IMG/VR virus record: IMGVR_UViG_3300011253_000047
Coordinates: 1 to 20,186 of that record
DNA: 20,186 nt
Origin: a virus
Strand: one strand, 5' to 3'
In this document: piece after piece, positions 16,643-20,186 of the stretch
Numbering within the stretch: the first letter of the stretch is position 1
Layout of the letters: each line of letters starts with the position of its first letter
Notes under the pieces: generated by a model
Told to the model about the DNA's origin: nothing
The model's input: only the letters and a program-made list of their open reading frames with translations
Database searches by the model: none
Position numbers and translations under genes: made by a program

Positions 16643-18652
16643 ATGTCTGAGATTGAAAACAAGATGGCTGCTGTTCAGTTGGCAGAATGGATTAACGAAA
16701 ACGAACACTTAAAAGGCACTCAGCAATACAATGATGTTGCTTCTGGTCTAAAAGAATCTGTAGCTTTAGATGTCGAAGAAAAATATCAAGACCTTTTTGC
16801 TAAGCAAGCGCCTGAAGAAACTGGTGCTTTTTCTGACTTCTCCAGGGCTTTTGGAATAAACGCTTTAGAAGTGGGAGCAGGATTAAATCAGATGGCGCTA
16901 GAAGGCGCTTCTAAGTTTGGTATACCCGGTGCTGATGATCTACTTAAAGATTACACAGGCACGATGTCTGAATTTACAAAACAACAAAAAGCTCTTACAG
17001 AAGATAGCCCTGTTGCATCGTTCTTTGGTGACGTTTTATCAGACACAGCTTTACTTGTTGCAAGCCCTACAGGAAAAGCTGATTCAGCAAAAAGCATCTA
17101 TAAAAAAATGGTTGAGTCTGGTGTAGAGCTAGGAGCGCTTGAAGGCGTTAAGTTAGTTGATGAAGATGGCAATAGACTAAGTATTGCAGCAGGAGCTGCC
17201 GCTTTAGGTGGGCTTAGTAGGGGTGCTTTAGAAGGTGTTATAGGTGGATTTAACAAGATTAAAGGCAAAGCCTCAGAAAGAATATCTACAGAGCTTGACG
17301 AGCTTTCTAAGCGCTTTGACGTAGATGTTTCTGTTGGAGATTTAACTCAATCTAAACCTTGGCAATTAACAGAAAACTTACTTGACCGAGTTCCTTTTAT
17401 TGGGACTGGTGACTTTGCACGAAGACAAGGCGAGTCACTAGAACAAGCGGCAAACAAGGTGATTGCTAATTATGGTGTTCCTGAAGACGAGATAAGCAAC
17501 TTCTTGACTGGTGCTGTTAAAAACAAATACAAAAAAGTAAAAGAAGTTTCTGATGCTAATTACGCCAACGTAAGCAAGGCATTAGGCGGTAAAAGTGTTC
17601 AGTATAATAATGCTAACGAAGCGGCGGCAGATTTAATTGAAGAGCTAAGGCCAAATCAAAATACACCAGAAATTAAGAAAATTATGGATGAGGTTAAGCG
17701 ATTTCTTCCAAAAGATTATTTTGGTGAAGATGAAGCTGGAAAGCTTATAAATAGAACTGGCTTAGGTGGGTATGAAAAAAGCTTTGATGATGCTTTTAAT
17801 CAACTTAAAATATACAACAAGTTACGGTATCAAGCTTCTAAGTCTGGCGATGAAAACCTAAGAGAAGTTTATGACACTATGGCTAAGGCCATACAAAGAG
17901 ATGTAGACGAGCTTGCAGACAATGTTGGTGGTGATGCGGCTACTGCTCTAAGCAAGGCTAAGTCTTACTACGCTAAAGAGGTTGCTCCATACACTAAAGG
18001 TCAGTTTCTTAAAATACGCAAGCCAGATGACTTCCCTACATTTAACGCTGACAACATTTACTCTACATTTGTTAAGCCTAACGCAAAAGGAACCAAAAAC
18101 CTACGCAAGCTTACTGACAAGATAGAGCTAGATGATGTTCAGATGTTAAAACAGCAAGTGCTTAGCGATGCTCACACAGCAGCTACGGTCAAAGATGTAT
18201 TTGATCCTTCAGTTTTTGCGTCACAGCTCAAAAAAATGGGTGAGTCTCGCAAGGTAATTTTTAATAAAGCAGAAAACGATGTTCTCGATGGGTACGTTAA
18301 GTTAGCTAATATGCTCCCTAGGGCTAAGCTTTCCTCTAATCAACAAGCGGCAAATATAGAAAGAGTTGCAGGCTCTGTTCCTGGCTTGGCTGCTGGTACG
18401 GCAACTATAGGTGCGGTTGCTGGAGCTTCACCTGCCGTTGTTGGAGGTCTTAGTATTATAGGCGGCATAAAAGGATTATCTTTACTCCTTACTTCTCCAG
18501 CAGGGAAAAAGCTGCTTACTACTGTTAATAAAAATCCAGACAAAGCAGAAACTTTGCTAAGACAAATGAACAAAGAGGTCCTTAATCTTACTAGAACAAA
18601 AGTCGTCCCTGTAGCTTCAGTGCCTAGCGTAAACCTAGAAGACGAAGAATAA
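16643..18652 (+). CDS. Large putative internal virion/ejection protein (669 aa)
   Basis: A 669-residue, mainly helical protein. The N-terminal region has AVQLAEWINENEHLKGTQQY, a short helical unit also seen at the N-terminus of other phage virion proteins. A segment near residue 225 (RFDVDVSVGDLTQSKPWQLT, then RVPFIGTGDFARRQGESLEQ) resembles an unassigned region of internal virion proteins. Residues about 575-625 are hydrophobic with Gly/Ala (LAAGTATIGAVAGASPAVVG, GGIKGLSLLLTSPAGKKLL) and can insert in membrane. It stops directly before the lysis genes and has the size and order of the largest ejected podophage protein. No enzymatic motif was found. Confidence 0.7.
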   Translation: MSEIENKMAAVQLAEWINENEHLKGTQQYNDVASGLKESVALDVEEKYQDLFAKQAPEETGAFSDFSRAFGINALEVGAGLNQMALEGASKFGIPGADDLLKDYTGTMSEFTKQQKALTEDSPVASFFGDVLSDTALLVASPTGKADSAKSIYKKMVESGVELGALEGVKLVDEDGNRLSIAAGAAALGGLSRGALEGVIGGFNKIKGKASERISTELDELSKRFDVDVSVGDLTQSKPWQLTENLLDRVPFIGTGDFARRQGESLEQAANKVIANYGVPEDEISNFLTGAVKNKYKKVKEVSDANYANVSKALGGKSVQYNNANEAAADLIEELRPNQNTPEIKKIMDEVKRFLPKDYFGEDEAGKLINRTGLGGYEKSFDDAFNQLKIYNKLRYQASKSGDENLREVYDTMAKAIQRDVDELADNVGGDAATALSKAKSYYAKEVAPYTKGQFLKIRKPDDFPTFNADNIYSTFVKPNAKGTKNLRKLTDKIELDDVQMLKQQVLSDAHTAATVKDVFDPSVFASQLKKMGESRKVIFNKAENDVLDGYVKLANMLPRAKLSSNQQAANIERVAGSVPGLAAGTATIGAVAGASPAVVGGLSIIGGIKGLSLLLTSPAGKKLLTTVNKNPDKAETLLRQMNKEVLNLTRTKVVPVASVPSVNLEDEE

Positions 18653-19141
18653 ATGTTTGGTTTAATCACCATGCTGTTATCAACGCTTGGAGCCACTGGG
18701 ATGGGTTCCATGCTAAAGATACTAGGTGGTGCAGTACAGAGCCGTAACGAGGCTAAAGAAGCAGAAGCAAAGAGAGAGCTAATACGTGATCTGCAAATGA
18801 AACAAGCAGACATAGAGTTCCAGAAGGCAATATTTGGAGATGCCAGCGATGACCCGGAAGCGACTATATTTACTCGGACTACTCGTAGGATTATTGCTCT
18901 TATCGGGATGCTCAATTTTGCAACCATCTCAATCCTCTGTACAATCTATCCCACAGTCGAACTCATTACATTTATCCCCCCTGAGCAAACCCAAGAAATT
19001 AGTATCTTGTGGGGTCTCTATAAGATGCCAGTCGATCAGGGAATTACAACTTCAATCACAACAGGGCATATCTCCCTTGTCTCGATTACCACTTTGGGCG
19101 CTATAATAGGGTTCTACTTCACACCGGCAGGAAAACGATAA
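18653..19141 (+). CDS. Holin-like membrane protein
   Basis: A 162-residue protein that starts directly after the previous stop and ends with an overlapping stop/start to the endolysin gene. It has a weakly hydrophobic N-terminus (MFGLITMLLSTLGATGMGSM), a coiled coil at about 30-62 (RNEAKEAEAKRELIRDLQMK), two basic residues (78-79) before a membrane helix at about 80-108 (IIALIGMLNFATISILCTIY) and a second one at about 138-158 (GHISLVSITTLGAIIGFYFT). This order of parts in front of a lysozyme gene fits a phage holin or related membrane protein. Codons in its 3' half use many C-ending ATC, CTC and CCC forms, unlike the AT-rich neighbours, which fits a second frame being used (see the nested lipoprotein). 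Confidence 0.7.
   Translation: MFGLITMLLSTLGATGMGSMLKILGGAVQSRNEAKEAEAKRELIRDLQMKQADIEFQKAIFGDASDDPEATIFTRTTRRIIALIGMLNFATISILCTIYPTVELITFIPPEQTQEISILWGLYKMPVDQGITTSITTGHISLVSITTLGAIIGFYFTPAGKR
18849..19106 (+). CDS. Nested lipoprotein frame, candidate Rz1-like outer-membrane spanin
   Basis: An 85-codon frame in the +1 frame relative to the holin-like gene, wholly inside it. The ATG at 18849 has GGAG at 18836-18839, nine bases away. The product starts MTRKRLYLLGLLVGLLLLSG and then C21: a basic n-region, a hydrophobic core and a lipobox LSGC, i.e. a classic signal peptidase II site. The predicted mature part begins CSILQPSQSSVQSIPQSNS and is rich in Ser, Gln and Pro, as Rz1-type spanins often are. 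Rz1 genes lie nested in, or overlap, a lysis gene, usually Rz; here the host frame is not clearly Rz-like. ATG at 18840 and TTG at 18834 are alternative starts. It could also be a chance product of the membrane-coding stretch. Confidence 0.45.
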   Translation: MTRKRLYLLGLLVGLLLLSGCSILQPSQSSVQSIPQSNSLHLSPLSKPKKLVSCGVSIRCQSIRELQLQSQQGISPLSRLPLWAL

Positions 19142-19731
19142 TGGACATTGATTTAGTCAATCAAACTGTAGCGATGATGAACCCTCAAGAGCAGGTTGTC
19201 GAGCAGATAGCACAGCCTTTGATTCTTGCAGCAACTCAACCTAGAGTCTTTTACGGCGCTGATGCAATTGGTGAGGTAGTTAAGCGAGAAGGCGATCTAA
19301 CGCCCCTACAAGCCTCCGTAGTAGTAGAAGAAGGGTTTGTTGATGGCATCTATGAGGATGACGCTGCTGACTCTGGTATCGCTAAGAAGAACGTCAAAAC
19401 AGCAGGTGTTGGTCAGACCGGCAAGTATATTGATATGTCGTTTAAAGAAGCCTTTGACGATAAGCTACAAGAAGCTAAGAAGATGTTCCCTGGCTTTGAC
19501 GACCTAAGCTTAGAAAAGCAAGAAGCGATTATGTCAACTCACTATCGTGGTGACACAAGACTCAAGAGCGGTAAGACTGCTAAATGGGTTAAGTTGTTTA
19601 ATGAAGGCAAGTACGGGAAGGCAGCAACAGAGTTGTTAGACCACAAAGAGTATAAGAAAAGAAAGTCTAATAACCCTAATGACGGTGTAGTAAAAAGACT
19701 AGAAAGAGCCTCTATGAATATTGCTAAGTAG
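19141..19731 (+). CDS. Endolysin, GH24/T4-lysozyme-like muramidase
   Basis: A 196-residue protein with AGGAAA six bases before the start. The segment EGFVDGIYED (64-73) aligns with the T4 lysozyme core EGLRLKIYKD, so E64 and D73 take the roles of E11 and D20. T87 in KTAGVGQTG (86-94) takes the role of T26, with about eight extra residues between D73 and T87. The end part with LFNEGKYGKAATELLDHKEY and GVVKRLERAS matches the C-terminal helices of that family. The first 40 residues are a hydrophobic/Gln-rich extension with no clear signal peptide or SAR helix, so release would need the holin upstream. It would cut the glycan backbone of peptidoglycan. It is also possible that it is a virion-bound lysozyme. 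Confidence 0.8.
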   Translation: MDIDLVNQTVAMMNPQEQVVEQIAQPLILAATQPRVFYGADAIGEVVKREGDLTPLQASVVVEEGFVDGIYEDDAADSGIAKKNVKTAGVGQTGKYIDMSFKEAFDDKLQEAKKMFPGFDDLSLEKQEAIMSTHYRGDTRLKSGKTAKWVKLFNEGKYGKAATELLDHKEYKKRKSNNPNDGVVKRLERASMNIAK

Positions 19732-19951: not shown

Positions 19952-20186
19952 CTATAATTCTTCAATTGACTTCACTTTTCTTGGTTCTGGGAACAAATAA
20001 TCTATTTTAGTAGCCCAGTCCGTAGGAATAGCCGTACAGCCACCCCCTTGCGTTATTTCTTCTTCAGTCATACATCTAGCGGCAGAAGTCATTAAGACAA
20101 TAGTATCATCGTTATGTTCTACTAGCCAACCTACGGTATAACATATAGCCATAGGTGTTTTCTTGCAGTCTTCTATGTCTAGCCAA
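19952..20186 (-). CDS. Small unassigned phage protein, 5' partial at the right edge, minus strand
   Basis: A minus-strand frame ends at the TAG complementary to 19952-19954 and stays open to the window edge (first full codon TGG at 20185). An ATG at 20152 is possible but has no ribosome binding site, and the residues before it (WLDIEDCKKTP) look like coding, so the true start is probably outside. The visible part has CYTVGWLVEHNDDTIVLMTS and GGGCTAIPTDWATKIDYL. The pattern V-G-W-L-V-x-x-x-D-D-x-I-V-L followed by a late I-P-x-x-x-I/T is one I know from small, unassigned proteins of aquatic phages. It is probably an early gene. Confidence 0.78.
   Translation of the reverse strand, partial: WLDIEDCKKTPMAICYTVGWLVEHNDDTIVLMTSAARCMTEEEITQGGGCTAIPTDWATKIDYLFPEPRKVKSIEEL

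Follow-up and report, generated by a model that had tools for sequence, protein, structure and literature searches.

A conserved lipoprotein gene nested in a holin-like gene of uncultured phages, a candidate o-spanin

A 20,186-base IMG/VR virus record, which is the whole stretch of DNA analysed here and which we call the window, holds a short open reading frame inside a gene for a holin-like membrane protein. Conservation among relatives indicates that this frame, in +1 relative to the enclosing gene, is almost certainly a real gene, and we read its product, with a probability of about 0.72 on the strength of its sequence, as an o-spanin (Rz1-like) embedded in a holin-like gene instead of an i-spanin gene. 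The window also encodes an SU10-type portal and capsid protein (Pfam). The features on which the reading draws are listed here, the enclosing holin-like gene being called the host gene throughout.

18653–19141, plus strand: host gene, an ORF of 162 codons for a holin-like membrane protein.
18836–18839, plus strand: GGAG, Shine–Dalgarno-like, 9 bases (18840–18848) ahead of the ATG at 18849.
18849–19106, plus strand: predicted nested lipoprotein gene, 85 codons, in the +1 frame of the host gene and conserved in relatives.
18849–18908, plus strand: codons of the predicted lipoprotein signal peptide (MTRKRLYLLGLLVGLLLLSG).
18900–18911, plus strand: lipobox LSGC, with the Cys codon at 18909–18911.
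19089–19097, plus strand: Pro-Leu-Trp near the C-terminus of the nested product (P in 63/68, L in 64/68 and W in 64/68 sequences, against 0.16–0.18 under the null model).
19141–19731, plus strand: probable endolysin gene, lysozyme fold, whose ATG overlaps the last base of the host stop codon (TAATG).

The nested gene opens with the ATG at 18849–18851 and its stop codon ends at 19106; the peptide reads MTRKRLYLLGLLVGLLLLSGC/SILQPSQSSVQSIPQSN...LPLWAL, with a signal made up of MTRKR, a hydrophobic core and LSGC. An earlier note on this DNA had described a +1 frame of 85 codons with ATG 18849, GGAG 9 bases before it, MTRKR, a core and LSGC, and all of these are present. It had also set a left edge at 18834, where a TTG in frame with the ATG would lengthen the gene to 90 codons. 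The ATG at 18849 is the better supported start because 23 of the 25 distinct sequences in the clade of the window have an ATG at −20 from the Cys, 22 of them with GGAG 4–15 bases upstream. The remaining two sequences have AAG at the place of the ATG and a GTG one codon further upstream.

Clade 1, the first of two samples, consists of the best 80 of 122 IMG/VR relatives of the host protein, 65–100% identical, together with the window; 70 of these 81 sequences are distinct. Codon tests used 68 of them, L026 (cut by a contig end) and L030 (which holds N) being dropped, or 69 where only L026 was left out, and alignments A1 and A2 comprise 49 of the 69. A search with the alignment (best 80 of 142 relatives) returned mostly the same contigs as the protein search, and the few new ones (for example, L128, L129, L132, L134, L135, L137, L154 and L159), as well as L160, stand outside the codon tests. 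The sequences are related and their counts are not independent; the synonymous tests therefore use neighbouring pairs on the tree to limit the effect of kinship. For the null model, host codons were redrawn synonymously, with 4,000 draws per sequence and the codon usage of the host codons ahead of the overlap.

Several lines of evidence support the nested frame as a gene. First, it has been kept open together with its lipobox. Over host columns 69–149, 66 of the 68 clade-1 sequences keep the +1 frame open, as against 0.0002 of null draws; in L043 and L055 it ends early, within the tail. By a pattern test, the lipobox is present in 68/68 (null 0.101); a clean hydrophobic core is found in 61/68, the weak signal peptides being those of L027–L029, L031, L032, L051 and L052, whose cores contain His or Glu. 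All three features coincide in 59/68 sequences, a combination with a null frequency of 0.00000 (five decimals, mean over sequences). Position −3 of the lipobox is Leu in 67/68 (null 0.32) and Phe in 1/68, and position −1 is Gly in 62/68 (null 0.10) and Ala in 6/68. Having a Cys is itself weak evidence, because the Cys is dictated by a host Met codon (null 1.00); the strong evidence lies in the open frame and in the residues at −1, −3, −4 and −9. The +2 frame is open in 0/68 clade-1 sequences and 0/67 sequences of the more distant clade 2 described below, and reverse frames are open in 24/68 and 2/68 (clade 1) and in 14/67 and 7/67 (clade 2).

Second, codon choice in the host gene follows the nested frame. 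The C-ending host codons that had been remarked on in the overlap are confirmed: over 68 aligned sequences third-base C rises from 14% in host codons 1–61 to 35% in the overlap, and in the window by itself from 13% to 28%. The codon for host Gly85 is GGG in 63/69 and GGC in 6/69, never GGA or GGT, which restricts position −1 to Gly or Ala. At host codon 83, 64 sequences encode Leu, invariably as CTT, and the other 5 have TTT (Phe); CTC, CTA, CTG, TTA and TTG would serve the host protein equally, and the last four would stop the +1 frame where an A follows.

Third, synonymous change in the host gene is suppressed where the two frames overlap. With the expectation calibrated on host codons before the overlap, clade 1 shows 0.49 of the expected change in columns 73–92, which cover the signal core and lipobox, 0.68 over columns 67–149 and 1.12 past the end of the overlap; elsewhere in the host gene, synonymous change is twice as frequent as over the signal core. 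An earlier calibration on the whole gene gave the same shape, with columns 96–120 near 1.0. At codon 83 there are 0 synonymous changes against 14.4 expected, and at codon 85 there are 2.0 against 12.8. The earlier note had proposed that relatives be tested for a conserved frame and lipobox and for suppressed synonymous change in the host frame, and we find all of these; the opposite pattern that it had named, with stops, loss of the Cys and normal synonymous variation in close relatives, was looked for and did not occur.

Fourth, the pattern recurs in a distant clade. Searching genomes with the clade-1 alignment turned up two loci: L160, from an Arcticimaribacter bin, is 67% identical, and L161, from a Gammaproteobacteria bin, is 36% identical. 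Both have the nested lipoprotein frame, which in L161 starts with an ATG after GGGAGG. The host gene of L161 lies between genes read as the scaffold and capsid genes of a T7-like phage, and the nearest named relative of its capsid protein belongs to the Autographiviridae. Clade 2 was built from the best 80 of 197 IMG/VR relatives of L161 plus L161 itself (81 loci, 67 distinct); it is T7-like, and its host protein is 36% identical to that of clade 1. The nested frame is open in 67/67 of these sequences (null 0.0005) and a canonical lipobox is present in 64/67 (null 0.028). Its place, however, differs: it lies at the host-Met site in 43/67 and six codons upstream in 21/67, and in those 21 sequences the host-Met site reads Trp. 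The remaining three (L221, L225 and L227) have HAGC, which is not canonical, at the upstream place. A looser count, in which charges before the Cys are ignored and His is allowed at −3, gives 27 sequences with the host-Met site alone, 24 with the upstream site alone and 16 with both; because none of the 67 has both sites under the stricter criteria, these 16 are only possible intermediates. This relocation of the lipobox is the strongest single sign of selection on the +1 product as a lipoprotein. The motif KP[LIV]W is found in 66/67 clade-2 nested products, and synonymous change in the host gene falls to 0.60 of the expected level over codons 47–136, 0.34 in codons 111–130 around Lys-Pro-Leu-Trp, and 0.92 over codons 140–154.

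Start codons vary in the remote members. Across the whole of clade 1, the stretch 17–25 codons before the Cys holds ATG in 36/69 sequences, GTG or TTG in 26/69 and no start in 7/69. Four sequences (L040, L041, L058 and L072) have no ATG, GTG or TTG within 12–40 codons of the Cys, and wherever the start is thus unaccounted for, a simple reading of the sequence is weakened. In clade 2, 15–33 codons before the Cys, ATG is found in 58/67, GTG or TTG in 8/67 and none in 1/67, with a four-base Shine–Dalgarno-like word upstream in 45 of the 58 sequences with ATG. The nested frame passes the host stop codon in 18/69 clade-1 sequences, and there it is overlapping, not embedded.

The o-spanin reading draws on the lipobox, a +2 residue other than Asp, the Ser-rich tail, the lysozyme-fold neighbour and an anchored coiled-coil gene nearby. 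In clade 1, Ser makes up 24% and Pro 10% of the nested tail, against 8% and 6% under the null model. The mature product would have 49–84 residues in clade 1 (65 in 49/69 sequences) and 60–70 in clade 2, matching the short, low-complexity periplasmic domain expected of an o-spanin. By the E. coli rule, lipoproteins without Asp at +2 are sorted to the outer membrane. The +2 residue is S, V, A or L in the 69 clade-1 sequences and S, Q, L or P in the 67 clade-2 sequences, with Asp in none, which fits this rule. Translation of the nested product, its lipidation, outer-membrane place, partner and spanin action are inferred, as is the holin label of the host gene.

On this reading, one mRNA late in infection would yield the holin-like protein, the endolysin and, between them, the nested lipoprotein. 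After export the lipoprotein would be lipidated at Cys21 and, since it lacks Asp at +2, passed to the outer membrane, where its flexible Ser/Pro-rich tail with Pro-Leu-Trp could meet an inner-membrane coiled-coil protein made from a separate nearby gene. Once the holin-like protein and endolysin had opened the inner membrane and the wall, the lipoprotein/coiled-coil pair would disrupt the outer membrane.

The product of the neighbouring gene, 19141–19731, is predicted to be lysozyme-like. Its AlphaFold model has a pLDDT of 81, and Foldseek matches it to the P1 Lyz, T4 and phage 21 lysozymes with probability 1.00 and E 0.007–0.02; ranks 1–4 are receptor chains (E 0.0015–0.006), at least one of them titled as a T4-lysozyme fusion. 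No Foldseek match reached E ≤ 0.001 and the protein has no Pfam match, but L281, a relative with 47% identity, scores above the Phage_lysozyme cut-off, with 23.1 against 22.3 bits. In close relatives the same slot holds a Phage_lysozyme protein (L084) or a Pesticin-type muramidase (L086, E 6e-30). The lysis set of holin-like protein, spanin and endolysin suggested earlier is supported as regards the endolysin-like neighbour, with its lysozyme fold and the Pfam matches of its relatives, but it left out the inner-membrane partner on which a two-component spanin depends. The catalytic domain behind the host gene differs among close relatives (lysozyme-fold, Phage_lysozyme or Pesticin type), and the BLAST match between the slot proteins of the window and L084 spans 34 residues only.

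The host protein combines a long N-terminal helix, which has a charged stretch, with 1 or 2 hydrophobic segments in its C-terminal half. Hydropathy profiles of 14 relatives place one segment near residues 78–87 in 14/14 and a second near 138–147 in 11/14, with no N-terminal membrane segment in any of the 14. The second segment is absent from both window-clade members scanned, which makes the holin build less clear in that clade. AlphaFold gives a low-confidence model (pLDDT 54) with helices at 2–49, 54–61, 72–98 and 137–156. The build is loosely comparable to that of GTA_holin_3TM (PF11351), in that both have a charged N-terminal helix and hydrophobic helices in the C-terminal half. The profile match is weak, however (8/49 host-protein relatives, best E 0.021), an N-terminal membrane segment is lacking in the 14 relatives scanned, and the window protein has no Pfam match at E 1, hence none at the cut-off of this family. 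The label of putative holin is drawn from build and place.

Candidates for the inner-membrane partner were counted by tblastn with four reference proteins in 26 window-clade loci (L082–L107) and 81 clade-2 loci, near-identical loci included; the clade-1 loci L108–L159 were surveyed by a rougher filter only. A gene for an anchored coiled-coil protein, with a short membrane anchor at its N-terminus, lies within about 3 kb, the extent of the fetched stretch, in 22/26 window-clade and 48/81 clade-2 loci; none was found within that stretch in 4/26 (one of them cut by a contig end) and 33/81, which weighs against the o-spanin reading. It is directly upstream of the host gene in 14/26 window-clade loci (L011 type) and downstream on the opposite strand in L082–L087, and its place in the nearest relatives of the window would fall beyond the end of the window record. 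Some relatives at about 65–72% identity have other small anchored coiled-coil genes, of L039 type (4 loci) and L045 type (8 loci), and the L039-type protein matches PHROG 739, an Rz-like spanin, with E 6e-5. By their build, these anchored coiled-coil genes are i-spanin candidates.

One anchored coiled-coil family, with an NSEFR[IV]-type motif (phrog_20984; L097 3806–4168 and L204 2681–2998), occurs in both clades. It has homologs in 17 Pelagibacter phage records, hypothetical proteins among the matches listed, and is a possible i-spanin. The L097-type homologs in Pelagibacter phages are plausible i-spanins, but a scan of six records showed no lipoprotein frame next to them. Many clade-1 contigs have a pair of related small membrane proteins after the host gene (phrog_18771; L028 3825–4398 and similar); we set this pair aside as an i-spanin, as the charges after the membrane segment suggest, by eye, the opposite orientation. 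Two genes directly upstream of an anchored coiled-coil gene (L170 8086–9171 and L165 14265–15053) encode proteins with a signal-like N-terminus and no Pfam match.

The arrangement both resembles and departs from known spanin systems. As in lambda Rz/Rz1, described in the available part of Kongari et al. 2018 (PMC6139136), a small lipoprotein with a low-complexity tail is encoded wholly inside the +1 frame of another gene, with an endolysin nearby; in lambda, however, Rz1 lies inside Rz, its inner-membrane partner, whereas here the enclosing gene is holin-like and the candidate partner has a gene of its own, which lies either upstream or, on the other strand, downstream. As in the separated two-component spanins of T4, treated in the same source (PMC6139136), the candidate i-spanin and o-spanin share no DNA, but the o-spanin candidate still shares DNA with a third gene. 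The available part of that survey defines embedded spanins as an o-spanin inside an i-spanin gene and separated pairs as ones that do not overlap (PMC6139136). We tested the defining feature of the embedded class and found that the enclosing protein is not an N-anchored coiled-coil, and for this reason we keep the nested gene out of the lambda-type embedded class.

An o-spanin inside a holin gene is not described in the available parts of PMC12596118, PMC9025707 and PMC9144972, the latter two of which mention antiholins encoded inside holin genes; nor did we find one among the titles and abstract openings listed by a literature search that took in few subscription journals. There is, we think, a somewhat better than even chance that the cassette represents an undescribed lysis-gene architecture, with an o-spanin in a holin-like gene and the i-spanin elsewhere, present on at least three phage backbones and old enough for the lipobox to have moved within the overlap. 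Two of the backbones would be SU10-like and T7-like, and a third that of contigs which have neighbour genes in common with T4-like Pelagibacter and Methylophilales phages. In the available part of the survey, 196 of the 528 genomes that have two-component spanins lacked the o-spanin gene in their annotation, and no spanin could be identified in 91 genomes, some spanin-less phages coming from Prochlorococcus or Synechococcus hosts (PMC6139136). An o-spanin in a holin-like gene would escape searches that start from the i-spanin; if the reading is true, such genes could account for part of the phages listed as spanin-less, and they give a concrete place to look. The two clades also bear on the evolution of overlapping genes, as a case in which an overlapping gene keeps a key motif by moving it.

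The carriers are for the most part uncultured phages, and probably marine. The word marine rests on the named relatives, Pelagibacter phage HTVC008M and Methylophilales phage Melnitz, and on the two genome bins; contigs of up to 185 kb and a neighbour family in common with the same two phages suggest that part of clade 1 is T4-like. In HTVC008M and Melnitz, the curli genes csgF and csgG are preceded, at a distance of a few genes, by a phrog_18771 homolog. Searching 50,697 named-phage records, a set that may omit records very near the window, by tblastn with the clade-1 host protein (three members) and the nested peptide gave no relative, and a capsid search gave only remote relatives, 178 records each below 60% identity. 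For the clade-2 host protein there are two remote and doubtful matches, Roseobacter phage CRP-7 gp70 and Vibrio phage 2.275.O NVP2275O_289, possible homologs at 27–28% identity (E 0.8 and 0.2, respectively). Each is followed by a small gene for a protein with an N-terminal hydrophobic stretch and a coiled-coil-like rest. The two match one another's PHROG 38283, whereas the clade-2 host protein does not, and unlike the clade-2 genes they have a +1 frame full of stops and no nested lipoprotein. In the clade-2 records read in detail (L161, G016 and G017), the host gene is flanked by scaffold and capsid genes, with no recognised endolysin beside it, which counts against the o-spanin reading. In the uncultured phage S45C18, the capsid protein has 61.5% identity to the L161 one; its translated frames, read by eye, show no host homolog between the scaffold and capsid genes.

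The most serious alternative, although an unlikely one, is that the nested gene is real but encodes some other outer-membrane lipoprotein, such as a Cor- or Llp-like superinfection exclusion protein or a regulator of holin timing. The nested product matches no known o-spanin family significantly (best Rz-like PHROG E 0.023 among 49 members), and 8/49 members weakly match the Cor superinfection exclusion protein (PHROG 1119, best E 0.099). To our knowledge, a Pro-Leu-Trp motif is not known from o-spanins, which counts on the same side. Location speaks against this alternative: the nested frame sits in a gene that, in the window, adjoins the lysozyme-fold gene, and an anchored coiled-coil gene is nearby in 22/26 and 48/81 loci.

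A six-frame scan for lipoproteins by our own criteria, covering the window and 10 other contigs, none of them known to be complete, bears on both sides. No candidate besides the nested frame came up in the window or in 5 of the 10 others (G001, G004, G007, G016 and G018), which argues against another role. In G002, G005, G010 and G020 it was found alongside one or more other candidates, and in G017 the criteria missed it and gave two others. Three contigs hold another ordinary-looking lipoprotein (G002 17611–17907, G005 25129–25299 and G010 30512–30835), which could be the o-spanin there and so favours the alternative.

Two further explanations are very improbable. Under one of them, an RNA element or a codon-usage effect in the holin-like gene would suppress synonymous change and leave the +1 frame as a by-product. 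Third-position C is indeed raised in the overlap, and the reverse frames are open in part (24 and 2 of 68, 14 and 7 of 67), but the +2 frame is open in none and the constraint tracks the amino acids of the +1 frame, with Gly85 only GGG or GGC and Leu83 only CTT. Moreover, the strongest constraint falls on different stretches in the two clades, and in clade 2 a lipobox appears upstream where the old site is lost. Under the other, the nested product would be a unimolecular spanin, self-anchored in both membranes, as might fit the single lipoprotein candidate in the window and the loci without a partner in the fetched stretch; such a protein needs a C-terminal membrane segment, and hydropathy in 14 relatives gives the nested frame at most one hydrophobic segment, at the signal peptide. 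Chance, with the Cys supplied by the host Met and the hydrophobic run by a shifted Ile/Leu/Ala-rich helix, is refuted by the relatives: the Cys is forced (null 1.00), but the null probabilities of open frame and lipobox in both clades, the synonymous suppression in both and a +2 frame open in none all speak against it.

Around the cassette, the 669-codon gene upstream of the host gene (16643–18652) is unmatched in the near relative G001, which has a different, 641-codon gene there. A conserved small ORF on the minus strand of the window (19952–20185) is also found near the cassette in the otherwise different G001, G004, G005, G007 and G010.
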